Below the pieces are notes generated by a model that had not been told where the DNA came from, did not search any database, and worked only from the letters and a program-made list of their open reading frames with translations. Position numbers and translations under genes: made by a program. From Bacteroidales bacterium (GTDB taxonomy: Bacteria; Bacteroidota; Bacteroidia; Bacteroidales; UBA3663), in the NCBI GenBank assembly GCA_017548545.1, contig JAFYZW010000083.1, positions 1 through 64,000 on the forward strand: a DNA stretch of 64,000 nt, in the 5' to 3' direction. This document shows positions 186-5,856 of the stretch, in pieces. How positions within the stretch are numbered: position 1 is the first letter of the stretch; every line of letters begins with the position of its first letter.

Positions 186-292
186 ATATCATCGGAATAA
201 ACGGAAAGATACAGCCTCTCCAATCTCATTTCTTCGCATACATGAGCACTTCCTCTATCATGTCCTTAACCCGTGCAAGTAATTAAAATCTG

Positions 293-344
293 TTTTTAGA
301 AATTCTGTGATTTTGTAAAATGATATTTTAATGGCGCAATGATA
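293..344. repeat. Direct repeat, distal copy flanking the ATPase gene
   Basis: About 50 bp that recur at 2098-2148 in the same orientation with about three mismatches (shared cores AATTCTGTGATTTTGTAAAA and TTTAATGGCGCAA). The other copy holds the -7 box of the minus-strand ATPase gene. In this copy the box reads TATCATTG on the minus strand, so the promoter looks damaged. Confidence 0.85.
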
Positions 345-2330: not shown

Positions 2331-2498
2331 ATGATGGCAAAGCCCATGAAGTATACCCGGAAATTAACGCCAAAGATGGAGGATCCGACGCTTATGACCA
2401 AGGAAGAATGCAGAAATAATGTTTTTGGACGTAAGTGGAAGCCGATCTACGACATTGAATGGCTGCTTCACGAAGCGGGATTGAAGTTCAAAACATGA
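2331..2498 (+). CDS. Small unknown protein, 55 aa, coupled to SLOG gene
   Basis: An open frame of 55 codons begins ATG ATG GCA AAG and ends in TGA at 2496-2498. It contains a charged middle (MTKEECRNN) and the segment YDIEWLLHEAG near the C-terminus. It starts just after a consensus promoter and its stop overlaps the ATG of the next gene in an ATGA junction, which argues for real translation and coupling. No family is recognised. It could be a small partner or regulator of the DUF2493 protein; that is inference from the overlap alone. Confidence 0.55.
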   Translation: MMAKPMKYTRKLTPKMEDPTLMTKEECRNNVFGRKWKPIYDIEWLLHEAGLKFKT

Positions 2499-2884
2499 AC
2501 AAACAAATGAACAACTACCGGGTAATTATTGCGGATTGCAGGGATTTCGACGATTATGCACTGCTCAAGCAGCGGTGCAATTATTACCTACAGGAGAAGA
2601 TGGTGACACATAACGTCATCATCGTGTCCGGCCATGCACCAGGTGCGGATGCCCTGGGAGAGAGGTTCGCGGAGGAACACGGCCTTCCATGCGAGATTCA
2701 TCCTGCCGATTGGGCGAAATATGGACGTTCTGCCGGACCGATACGCAATGCTGAAATGGCATCGTGTTCTGATGCCCTCATTGCCTTCTGGGACGGCCAG
2801 AACCCCGGCACACGCTCGATGATCGAGCTCGCTCGCAAGAAGGGACTGCAGGTGGCCGTCGTGTACTTCACCGATAAAAAATAA
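2495..2884 (+). CDS. DUF2493 / YspA-type SLOG family protein
   Basis: 129 aa from the ATG at 2495. The fold is marked by V-S-G-H-A-P-G-A-D (Rossmann-like nucleotide-binding turn), followed by PIRNAEMASCSDALIAFWDG and GTRSMIELARKKG, all typical of DUF2493 (cpYpsA-related SLOG). SLOG proteins bind nucleotides or nucleotide-derived ligands and are frequent on phages, plasmids and in defence or stress islands. The family glycine GG before A-x-G-A-D is GH here. A longer frame exists from 2459, but the overlapping ATGA with the upstream 55-aa ORF favours 2495. The gene ends inside the first 140-bp repeat. Family call firm; function unknown. Confidence 0.88.
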   Translation: MNKQMNNYRVIIADCRDFDDYALLKQRCNYYLQEKMVTHNVIIVSGHAPGADALGERFAEEHGLPCEIHPADWAKYGRSAGPIRNAEMASCSDALIAFWDGQNPGTRSMIELARKKGLQVAVVYFTDKK

Positions 2885-2958
2885 CGAAAGCACCACCGGT
2901 AAAAGTGATGCTTCCGAGCTTGGGCTGCCCACCCGTAAGGGTGCGTCCTTGGCCAATG
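2876..2958 (-). ncRNA. Predicted small RNA, copy 1
   Basis: On the minus strand the repeat contains TTGACA (2990-2995), 17 bases, TATCTTTG (2965-2972), then about 80 bases ending in a hairpin AAGCATCAC / GTGGTGCTT (one U-G pair) followed by TCGTTATTTTTT. A second hairpin, CACCC-TTAC-GGGTG, lies near the middle. No convincing ORF is inside. A promoter, a short transcript and a terminator in this order define a small-RNA gene; identity unknown. Confidence 0.55.
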
Positions 2959-3015
2959 TCGGTGCAAAGATAGTGAATAAAACCGAATGTGTCAAGAGAT
3001 TGGGCGAACTTTTTG
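2876..3015. repeat. 140-bp direct repeat, left copy flanking MobV gene
   Basis: This 140-bp stretch matches 5017-5156 in the same orientation, with about 10 differences and no gaps by eye (~93%). It begins in the A-run that ends the SLOG gene and ends after GGGCGAACTTTTTG. The two copies are separated by 2.0 kb containing only the relaxase and its leader. Recombination between them would release a 2141-bp circle. Confidence 0.9.
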
Positions 3016-3103
3016 ATTATATTGTTCAAAAAAAGGCACTCGGCCCCCATGAATTGCTACATGAGAGTTCCATGTTCGATCGATTGAAATTGAGAGAGGG
3101 ATG

Positions 3104-4543
3104 TTATCGTCTCCGCCCTCTGCCAAGACTGGGCTTCATCATTGATGTGGCCTGTCTGATGCAGCGCATCCACCATTGATCATCATCTTCGTCTCGCTTT
3201 CGCCCCCATCCCGTCATGTTTCCGCCACCACCTCCACCATGGGATTCCGCATATGTCGTGGCTTCGTTCACGAAGTTGATGGCAAGCAGCAATGCGGTGC
3301 CAATGACATCGTTGGCCTTGTCGGCCAGGTCGTAGTAACCCGAATCATGAAGGGTCTCCCTCTGGTCTCGATCAAGCGTGTCAAGGACAGGCTTGAACGT
3401 TTCGGTTAGTTGTTTGTAAAACGCTTTATGGATACCAGCATGCACAAGCGTGGCTTCTTTCCTCATGTCTCCTTCGCAATCTTTCGACCATTCCTGATGT
3501 AGTTTTTTTAAATCATTTATGCCATTTTCGAGGTCTTTTTCTACTTGCTGCTTCCTCGCGATCTTCTTTCCTATTTCCTCTAACTTATTCTCATTATGCA
3601 CCAATTCATCTGATCTTTTGTTGCAAATTCGTTCAAGCTCTTCTATACGCTGCAGCGTCTCCTTTTCAAGTTCGGTCGCTGTCTTGTGTCTGACTCGATT
3701 CTTTTCCTCCTCGGTAAGGGTGTTCCTGGCTCTTCCACGAGCAAGACCGTAGCAACATCCGACTTCCTTGTAGAAGGCCGTGTGGAAGTTCCTCAGCCAC
3801 AGGCTCCTCTCCTTTCTGTCTTCGCCTACCAGACCTGAGAAGGATACGACCTGTTTGGTCTTTCGCTCGACTTCCTCGACCTTGGTGAAAGCTTTCCTTT
3901 TTTCTTTTGAAAGGTTCCTGTATTCTGCGGATGTGATACGTGAGCCGTCTGAATTGGCATAGATGCACGTAGCCCTGCCGCGCTCCTGTCGCATGGCCAC
4001 GGGAATCACGTTGACATGGGCATGTGGCGTTGTCTCGTCAAGATGCACCTCTACACCGATGACGTTTTCCTTACCGAACTTCCTGCAGGCGAACTTATAG
4101 ACATCGACGGCCCATTTCTCAATCCCCTGCATTCGCTTGATGTGGCTGTTGTCATCGCTGAGGTCAAATGAAACCTTCTGGTTCCCGAAAGCCAGCTTGT
4201 TCATGACGTCGTGATCTCCGCTGATCACCCAGTCTATGTAGCTGATGGGTTGGTTCGCGGCTTTCGGGTCGTATGCCTTGAAGCCGAGATCCTTCAGCCT
4301 GGCCATGTACTTTCCAAGGAGCTGCTTTGAGTTTGTGGAAGAGAGGGGCTTGATACCGTCTTCAGTAACGACGAAGTTCAATGATTTTCTTGAGAAGTCG
4401 TAATGATGTCCGTCTTCCTTGTTCTTGGCCGAATACCGGTCCTTGTCCCATCCGTCTCGGGTGTTCTCGTATGCCTGTCCATAATCAAATGTCTTCTGGG
4501 CCGTCCCGTGGATAGCCGAACGGGGGGTGTTGTCTCTTTTCAT
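3104..4543 (-). CDS. MobV-family (Mob/Pre) relaxase
   Basis: 479 aa from the ATG at 4543, which has AAGGA five bases upstream; a GTG 30 bases earlier is possible. Early residues SLNFVVTEDG and the catalytic H-x-D-E-x-T-P-H-x-H motif (HLDETTPHAHVNVIP, about residues 167-181) identify a MOBV relaxase, which nicks oriT and starts conjugative mobilisation. Residues about 280-370 form a charged coiled coil, as usual in this family. The tail is glycine-rich (GGGGGG) and ends in basic residues. There is no replication, coupling or partner mobilisation gene, so this is probably the remnant or core of a mobilisable element bracketed by the 140-bp repeats. The catalytic residues look intact. Confidence 0.93.
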   Translation of the reverse strand: MKRDNTPRSAIHGTAQKTFDYGQAYENTRDGWDKDRYSAKNKEDGHHYDFSRKSLNFVVTEDGIKPLSSTNSKQLLGKYMARLKDLGFKAYDPKAANQPISYIDWVISGDHDVMNKLAFGNQKVSFDLSDDNSHIKRMQGIEKWAVDVYKFACRKFGKENVIGVEVHLDETTPHAHVNVIPVAMRQERGRATCIYANSDGSRITSAEYRNLSKEKRKAFTKVEEVERKTKQVVSFSGLVGEDRKERSLWLRNFHTAFYKEVGCCYGLARGRARNTLTEEEKNRVRHKTATELEKETLQRIEELERICNKRSDELVHNENKLEEIGKKIARKQQVEKDLENGINDLKKLHQEWSKDCEGDMRKEATLVHAGIHKAFYKQLTETFKPVLDTLDRDQRETLHDSGYYDLADKANDVIGTALLLAINFVNEATTYAESHGGGGGGNMTGWGRKRDEDDDQWWMRCIRQATSMMKPSLGRGRRR

Positions 4544-4612
4544 GAATCCTTGTATTATTGAATCATTTGGCACGGGTTAGTGCCGTTTCTTGACGGTGTA
4601 GGAAAGGAGGGT

Positions 4613-4736
4613 CAAGGGAGAAGTACGCTCCCTTGTCGGGTTGCATAGGGCAGAAGCCCTTGCCCTCTATGGGAGGTAATCTCGTCAGAGCATAGCTGTG
4701 TTTTCTTGTGGTTGCGCCACAAAAAACCAAACTATG
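4613..4736. other. Candidate oriT: dyads in the relaxase leader
   Basis: Between the relaxase and its promoter lie CAAGGGAG (4613-4620) / CTCCCTTG (4628-4635), a perfect 8-bp stem. A longer interrupted dyad also occurs: CATAG (4691-4695) with CTATG (4732-4736), enclosing TTGTGG (4706-4711) with CCACAA (4717-4722). MOBV origins of transfer usually sit immediately upstream of the mob gene and contain such dyads. The nic site cannot be assigned from sequence alone. Confidence 0.4.
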
Positions 4737-4777
4737 TTTTTATTTTTTGCGGCTTCATCCTCAAAAAATATCCTCCA

Positions 4778-4808
4778 CAAAGGTATTGTGTTTCTATTAA
4801 TGTTCAAA
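4778..4808 (-). promoter_or_regulatory. Promoter for the MobV gene
   Basis: On the minus strand TTTG (4805-4808), 19 bases, then TACCTTTG (4778-4785). Initiation near 4771 would give a leader of about 230 nt that includes the oriT-like dyads. Confidence 0.6.
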
Positions 4809-4891
4809 GCATCTAGTTACTTTCTTTGATATCATCCATAATTTTATTAAGGCTATAGTCGTTTTGTAAAACGCATTTGACAACATAACGA

Positions 4892-5016
4892 TTGAAAGTA
4901 GCCGGTATCGAGGTCAGCACCGATTGGGGGTTAGGTCAGCGGATCCTGAATGATTATCTTGACAAGAAGAACGACAATACGGATTATCTTACACTTGTCT
5001 TTTCAAAAAAGGGGAG
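4892..5016 (+). pseudogene. Possible coding remnant before the right 140-bp repeat
   Basis: A frame with protein-like composition (TDWGLGQRILNDYLDKK, DYLTLVFSKKG) runs into the repeat, where it continues only by chance to a stop at 5206. No start codon other than TTG and no upstream gene exists. It may be the 3' end of a gene cut by insertion of the repeat unit. Not recognised; weak. Confidence 0.25.
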
Positions 5017-5099
5017 AAAAAATAACGAAAGCACCACCGGTAAAAGTGATGCTTCCGAGCTTGGCCTGCCCACCTCGAAGGGTGCGGCCGTGGCTAAGG
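5017..5099 (-). ncRNA. Predicted small RNA, copy 2
   Basis: Same arrangement as copy 1: TTGACA on the minus strand at 5131-5136, TATCTTTG at 5106-5113, and the terminator hairpin with T-run ending at 5017. The middle hairpin changes to CACC-CTTCGA-GGTG, so it keeps pairing while its sequence varies. Confidence 0.55.
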
Positions 5100-5156
5100 T
5101 CAGTGCAAAGATAGTGAATAAATCCGAATGTGTCAAGAGATTGGGCGAACTTTTTG
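5017..5156. repeat. 140-bp direct repeat, right copy flanking MobV gene
   Basis: Right partner of 2876-3015. Most differences fall in the central hairpin region and the bases next to the transcription start; the promoter boxes and the terminator are identical. Confidence 0.9.
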
Positions 5157-5468
5157 CAAAAACCGCTTCATTTTTTTATGCTTTGTTTCTGTTTTGTCCT
5201 TTATAGTCAGCAAAACAGACAGTGATGACATCAATGATCAACCTTGCGCCATGGTTGCCATGATCATTGCCTGGTGCAATTCATGGTCCAATCATAGTCC
5301 AATAAACGACGGTTTTACGGACATCAGAGGATCATGCAGTCATTCCTCCCTTTTCTCCCCTTTATTCGTTTCAAATACCCGTCTGTAAAACAAAGTGCAA
5401 CAAATAGGGCGAAAGAACCATTATCAGACGCTATTTCGCACGTCAAAACCAACTTTTCTTCGCAAATA
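5157..5468. other. Non-coding stretch, nothing recognised
   Basis: About 310 bases of mixed composition without a plausible gene, repeat or hairpin. The short open frames here overlap one another and lack start context. Confidence 0.5.
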
Positions 5469-5506: not shown

Positions 5507-5646
5507 GAAACTATCAGCAGCCGCGAGCCATCACGGCTGAAAAAAACCTATTCGTCCTCAGCAGGTGGTGAGCCGGGAAACCGTCACATGGATCTGATAG
5601 TCCAAGCAACACCTTAGCTGGGGACATTTTGCTAAAACTATCAACT
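5507..5646 (+). ncRNA. Structured 5' leader (candidate cis-regulatory RNA)
   Basis: CTATCAG (5511-5517) pairs with CTGATAG (5594-5600) and encloses two hairpins. These are CAGCCG (5518-5523) / CGGCTG (5534-5539), and a GTGA-GC-CGG stem closed by a GAAA tetraloop on CCG-TCAC (5568-5587). A further hairpin TTAGC (5614-5618) / GCTAA (5631-5635) sits just before the ATG at 5647. A closed multi-helix domain with a GNRA loop followed by a hairpin near the start codon is the layout of a cis-acting RNA switch. It does not match a riboswitch class I can name. Confidence 0.45.
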
Positions 5647-5856
5647 ATGTTACAAATCACCAACGACGTCCTGGCTAAGTACAAGCCACGTCACCTTCGA
5701 CTGAGCCTTTGGCTCGTTTACAATCGACTAACAAATTATATCCTCCTGGACAACGGCGAGAACGACGTATGCGCTAACGAGGACAACCTTCCGGAAGCGA
5801 TGGAGATCCTGCGCGAGATCATAGACGCTCTCGACGAGGATGAGCATGATCATTGA
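5647..5856 (+). CDS. Unknown small acidic protein, 69 aa
   Basis: The ATG at 5647 gives MLQITNDVLAKYKPRHLRLS and an acidic C-terminal half (ENDVCANEDN, EAMEILREIIDALDEDE). Not recognised. The consensus promoter, 140-nt structured leader and clean reading frame support a real gene. The leader suggests control after transcription starts. No partner gene is adjacent. Confidence 0.5.
   Translation: MLQITNDVLAKYKPRHLRLSLWLVYNRLTNYILLDNGENDVCANEDNLPEAMEILREIIDALDEDEHDH

Follow-up and report, generated by a model that had tools for sequence, protein, structure and literature searches.

Two 143-nt direct repeats flank a MobV relaxase gene in the stretch of Bacteroidales DNA studied here (64,000 nt in all, called the window below). 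We give an even chance to the reading that each repeat is a copy of a lineage-restricted gene for a predicted small RNA (sRNA) of ~85 nt, a functional, element-encoded RNA at the cargo end of tRNA-anchored mobile elements. Copies of the repeat recur at element ends in relatives, so the repeat appears to be a recurrent component of the integrase-distal end, and the window a rearranged remnant.

Anatomy of the repeat pair

The repeats are 92% identical and lie 2141 nt apart, start to start. Read on the minus strand, each contains TTGACA, 17 nt, TATCTTTG, and then ~85 nt extending to a terminator hairpin with a U-run. For the primary sigma factor of Bacteroides, the -7 consensus given in the literature is TAnnTTTG (PMC7366714). 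In a strict pattern search, TTGACA-N16-18-TANNTTTG was found at two sites in the 64-kb window, both in the repeats, and 30 dinucleotide shuffles gave a mean of 0.00. The initial annotation of this DNA had described two repeats ~2 kb apart with a minus-strand promoter and a hairpin, and this description is confirmed. The features of the region, in window coordinates, are:

2459-2884, plus strand: YspA/cpYpsA-related SLOG gene (YAcAr, PF10686), convergent with copy 1; an outer flank shared with the relative RUG465
2873-3015, minus strand: repeat copy 1, predicted sRNA gene (116.9 bits with covariance model R1, in whose training set it is included)
2995-2990 and 2972-2965, minus strand: copy 1 -35 box TTGACA and -7 box TATCTTTG
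~2962-2878, minus strand: copy 1 predicted RNA, with terminator hairpin at 2916-2885 and U-run
3016-3066: sequence upstream of copy 1; a 93% identical counterpart precedes a contig-end copy in the congener G011
3104-4543, minus strand: MobV relaxase of 479 aa, codirectional with the RNA genes (NF041497, Pfam Mob_Pre, HLDETTPHAHVNVIPV motif)
4699-4770: inverted repeats upstream of MobV, a candidate oriT with no homologue in the genus
5014-5156, minus strand: repeat copy 2, predicted sRNA gene (113.5 bits with model R1, likewise in the training set)
5136-5131 and 5113-5106, minus strand: copy 2 -35 and -7 boxes
~5103-5019, minus strand: copy 2 predicted RNA, with terminator hairpin at 5057-5026 and U-run
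5157-5400: outer flank of copy 2, a conserved left-end module of tRNA-anchored elements (91% identical in RUG465, part of it in G011)

The two terminators are identical, with a 13-pair stem, a 6-nt loop and the tail TTATTTTTT; the stop codon of the SLOG gene falls inside the U-run of the copy 1 terminator. Folded singly, the copies have z-scores of -2.3 and -2.8. Between a point just upstream of the -35 box and the start of the U-run the copies differ at 10 of 119 nt, and nine of the ten differences fall in the 48-nt 5'/middle part (p = 0.0018). The earlier picture, in which promoter and terminator stay constant and the middle varies, is therefore borne out. The accompanying claim, that the middle hairpin varies and still pairs, stands only in part: copy 2 loses one of the CACCC/GGGTG pairs, and the sole covarying pair of the eight-copy alignment described below sits in the terminator.

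Adjoining copy 2, at window 4959-5013 on the plus strand, is a promoter-like site, TTGACA-N17-GATTAT, with an open frame that enters the repeat; it is possibly the end of a lost gene.

Distribution of the repeat

Relatives were sought by a DNA search of 99 genomes and with the covariance model R1, built on the 96-nt core. Eight strong copies score 88-119 bits, all eight having also been used to build the model. They are confined to three of the 15 genomes of a rumen Bacteroidales genus: three copies in the window's genome (one of them on contig C104), two in G003 (isolate RUG465, contig ONNR01000028.1) and three in G004 (isolate Reindeer_1_mag_244). No RNA copy was found in the other 12 genomes of the genus, save a promoter fragment at a contig end in G011. 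The phage, plasmid and IMG/VR collections gave nothing convincing, and a covariance search of ~300 genomes of the order gave nothing beyond generic terminators. The covariance search that the initial annotation had proposed for Bacteroidales genomes and plasmids thus yields eight copies in one genus and none convincing on plasmids. The repeat has no significant match in Rfam at gathering or permissive thresholds. Weak covariance matches in other genera and in congeners were set aside as generic hairpins or terminators; likewise, promoter-only likenesses in G007, G013 and G042 and a 23-nt match in G029 were judged to be chance or a shared -7 motif. All of the relatives are draft assemblies, and several contigs end inside the repeat, which bounds the copy number and arrangement that can be read for G004 and G011.

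Not all copies are intact. The C104 copy has lost its promoter, none being recognisable, and in the G004 copy on contig C10 the 3' half of the terminator is gone. Homologues lacking a promoter or terminator, which had been named beforehand as evidence against an RNA gene, therefore do occur, at two of eight copies. The RUG465 copy G003b has an unrelated upstream region, still with a TATCTTTG box, and its RNA part is preserved.

Some 1.4 kb from the C104 sRNA copy there are group II intron matches (RF02001, 144.8 bits; L004 3384-5235).

Element contexts

What kind of DNA carries the repeat? The clearest case is RUG465, where the same outer flanks as in the window enclose two copies separated by 216 bp that contain no relaxase (contig C11). 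Window 2514-2972, which includes SLOG gene sequence, is 90% identical to the RUG465 locus L015, and window 5018-5400 is 91% identical. The RUG465 copies sit in a ~14.5-kb integrative mobilizable element anchored at tRNA-Arg(CCG). The element encodes YoeB/YefM, an AAA_25 protein, a TraJ-like protein, MobV, an HTH_17 protein and, beside the tRNA gene, a tyrosine integrase. A 12-bp duplication of the 3' end of tRNA-Arg, TCCCATACGGAG, delimits it at C11:8775 and 23242, and 22-bp TGTCAGC arm repeats occur at both ends. The RUG465 MobV gene is ~7.6 kb from the RNA copies and is oppositely oriented with respect to the RNA. The MobV proteins of RUG465 and the window are 38% identical overall, with a strongly conserved C-terminus; the last ~95 codons are 79% identical in DNA (window 3104-3403 versus L015 14614-14891), which suggests recombination or a conserved C-terminal module.

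The G004 copies occupy comparable positions. Contig C65 begins within the repeat and runs into a related element, the second found at tRNA-Arg(CCG), which has MobV and an integrase that is 93% identical; this copy lies at the element's integrase-distal end. Contig C38 stops inside the repeat, beyond a type I restriction locus that lies by a tRNA-Arg(TCT) gene with an integrase remnant. The C10 copy is ~200 bp downstream of tRNA-Leu(TAA). G011 has the left-end module, with a toxin gene, beside different chromosomal genes, and there the counterpart of window 3016-3066 lies ~160 bp from the module.

At the C38 locus (L025 15031-19445 and L016), the tRNA-Arg(TCT) gene and an integrase fragment are followed by the type I restriction-modification genes, then by a putative regulator gene and, last, by the sRNA. 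This relic is likely a defence-carrying relative of the element.

In the window itself we found no tRNA gene and no att motif or duplicate, nor was a relative of the integrase found in the draft genome from which it comes (85% complete); we therefore take the window to be an element remnant.

The interval between the repeats and its surroundings

The repeats enclose the MobV gene and a ~470-bp region with the inverted repeats of the candidate oriT, and nothing else, as had been noted from the sequence. The product of window 3104-4543 is a MobV relaxase: it scores 105.1 bits against NCBIfam NF041497 (curated cutoff 100) and has the relaxase motif HLDETTPHAHVNVIPV.

It was this tidy arrangement that led to the proposal of a 2141-bp mobilisable unit with sRNA genes as its ends, able to leave as a circle. 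One might think that 143-bp direct repeats around a relaxase and a candidate oriT, with no other cargo, favor such a unit, yet the RUG465 pair, with the same outer flanks and a relaxase-free interval, runs against it. The two-copy arrangement exists there without the relaxase. In the window the relaxase unit lies between copies that are adjacent elsewhere, the opposite of what is predicted for a unit with terminal repeats of its own. A unit with the repeats as its exact ends should be present or absent as a block between related sites, and the genus offers no second occurrence of the MobV/oriT unit. The unit is without a recombinase and is absent from the plasmid collection, where MobV matches with a query coverage of 80% or more reach ~26-27% identity to the window protein. 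We found no paper on sRNA-flanked integrative mobilizable elements in Bacteroidales. Nothing supports the 2141-bp unit, and we consider it very unlikely.

Two other features of the neighborhood may be recorded. A c4-2 RNA (Rfam RF02944; 44.4 bits, gathering score 41) is located at window 5552-5629 on the plus strand, 400 bp from the repeat and directly 5' of a 70-75-aa ORF ending at 5856, whose homologue adjoins the integrase in the RUG465 element. The upstream promoter region is found again across the genus. Like the repeat RNA, the c4-2 RNA is small and lies in the same neighborhood, and it is structured; the two differ in sequence and strand. On the other side, 63-bp direct repeats (89% identical) at window 282-344 and 2086-2148 flank a gene for an AAA_14/DUF4143 ATPase (390-2087) that carries a MutS_I-like domain at its C-terminus and matches PDC-S01 of PADLOC. 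The upstream 63-bp copy comprises the -7 box and leader of the ATPase gene, and a third 63-bp copy abuts the decayed sRNA copy on C104.

RNA gene or DNA feature?

Is the repeat a gene for an RNA, or does it matter only as DNA? The promoter argues for the former. Its -35 and -7 boxes show no change in any of the six copies in which the promoter is retained; in the 5'/middle part, by comparison, 16 of 48 positions vary. Were the repeat a left-end module or recombination substrate acting at the DNA level, with promoter and terminator incidental or a mere transcription boundary and any RNA non-regulatory, this distribution of change would be surprising, as would the preservation in G003b of the RNA part, behind a different upstream region that still has its TATCTTTG box. 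Structure points the same way: across the eight related copies 96.9% of structure cells are paired, versus 38-47% when the partners are slid, the structure coming from the same alignment, and one terminator-stem pair changes from A-U to U-A/U-G. The DNA-level reading nevertheless draws on several observations. Cargo differs between otherwise identical flanks, and the copies without promoter (C104) or terminator (C10) persist. Covariation is weak, being seen at that single pair. Nor did a search for base-pairing targets among the genes of the window unit and the RUG465 element do better than shuffles, as judged by duplex energies that carry no accessibility terms. When the support from structure and promoter is set against the few related copies, the one covarying pair, the two decayed copies and the missing target, we come to an even estimate for a functional sRNA and regard a DNA-level end module as possible, though doubtful.

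Other readings fare less well. One is that an integrated plasmid left behind an antisense RNA for copy number or incompatibility; a copy-number RNA had been suggested from the sequence. Plasmid incompatibility RNAs, like the repeats, combine an unchanging promoter and terminator with a middle that varies. Neither between the copies nor next to them is there a replication initiator, searches gave no plasmid match and no complementary leader, and the relatives carry the RNA in a tRNA-anchored chromosomal element; we think this reading highly improbable. It is also hard to credit that a protein gene, in either direction, has its 3' end in the repeat. In every copy four of the six frames run through the core without a stop, but pN/pS is 0.58-1.14 across frames and near 1 in most of them, so that no codon frame is under strong purifying selection; there is no conserved start or stop, and the flanking sequence on both sides differs among copies. 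The coding reading was rejected in all six frames on these grounds.

An integron attC-like reading of the gene stop plus repeat was dropped on inspection by eye; the repeat ends have no consensus core sites.

A proposed model for an element-encoded RNA

A predicted, self-contained sRNA transcription unit associated with mobilisation elements is the part of the initial proposal that gains support. We propose that the RNA gene is a standing component of the integrase-distal, or cargo, end of a tRNA-anchored integrative mobilizable element family in one genus. Transcription would start at the gene's own sigma-ABfr-type promoter, run away from the left-end module, and stop at the intrinsic terminator. 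The genes of the intact RUG465 element run convergently towards the RNA, so read-through from them would be antisense to it. The RNA most likely acts as an element-encoded regulator. The duplication, and the exchange of the interval (216 bp in RUG465, the 2-kb MobV unit in the window), most likely arose by recombination or element accretion. A more elaborate scenario, which we think unlikely, has a family of element-specific regulatory RNAs, their promoter and terminator fixed and their middle diversifying, serving at the cargo end of tRNA-anchored elements as the homology block for cargo exchange between elements, each duplicate marking a cassette boundary; the cargo would be the spacer, the relaxase unit or the defence genes.

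If expressed, the repeats define an undescribed sRNA family on mobilizable elements of rumen Bacteroidales, where few element-borne RNAs have been characterised, and offer a candidate transfer regulator and a marker of the element cargo border. If they are not expressed, the reading of the locus is still corrected: the repeats delimit no mini-mobile element.

Comparison with known systems

With known Bacteroidales MobV elements anchored at tRNA genes the RUG465 element shares a tyrosine integrase by the tRNA gene, a MobV relaxase, a TraJ-like protein and the duplicate of the tRNA 3' end. The window, by contrast, holds fragments only, with MobV relocated between the RNA copies.

Element-borne regulatory RNAs have precedents. 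The Bacteroides conjugative transposon CTnDOT encodes RteR, in one account (PMC7366714, citing Jeters 2009 and Waters & Salyers 2012) a 90-nt trans-encoded RNA with an effect on the tra operon. As far as that account goes, RteR and the repeat RNA are both ~90-nt RNAs of integrated Bacteroidales transfer elements, the own promoter and discrete size being predictions in our case; the repeat RNA differs in being duplicated, in residing on a MobV integrative mobilizable element, and in having no significant Rfam match. A role like that of RteR is possible by analogy, and we claim no kinship. In Salmonella Genomic Island 1, the self-encoded sgm-sRNA is needed for mobilisation; located between mpsA and oriT, it is a processing product of a longer RNA, and transfer requires it (PMC9299015). 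It too is an island-encoded small RNA tied to a mobilisation module, whereas the repeat RNA is predicted to stand alone as a unit, at the integrase-distal end. Given RteR and sgm-sRNA, small RNAs borne by elements are not new as a class; the novelty here lies in the sequence family, which is undescribed, in its duplication, and in its location at the cargo end.
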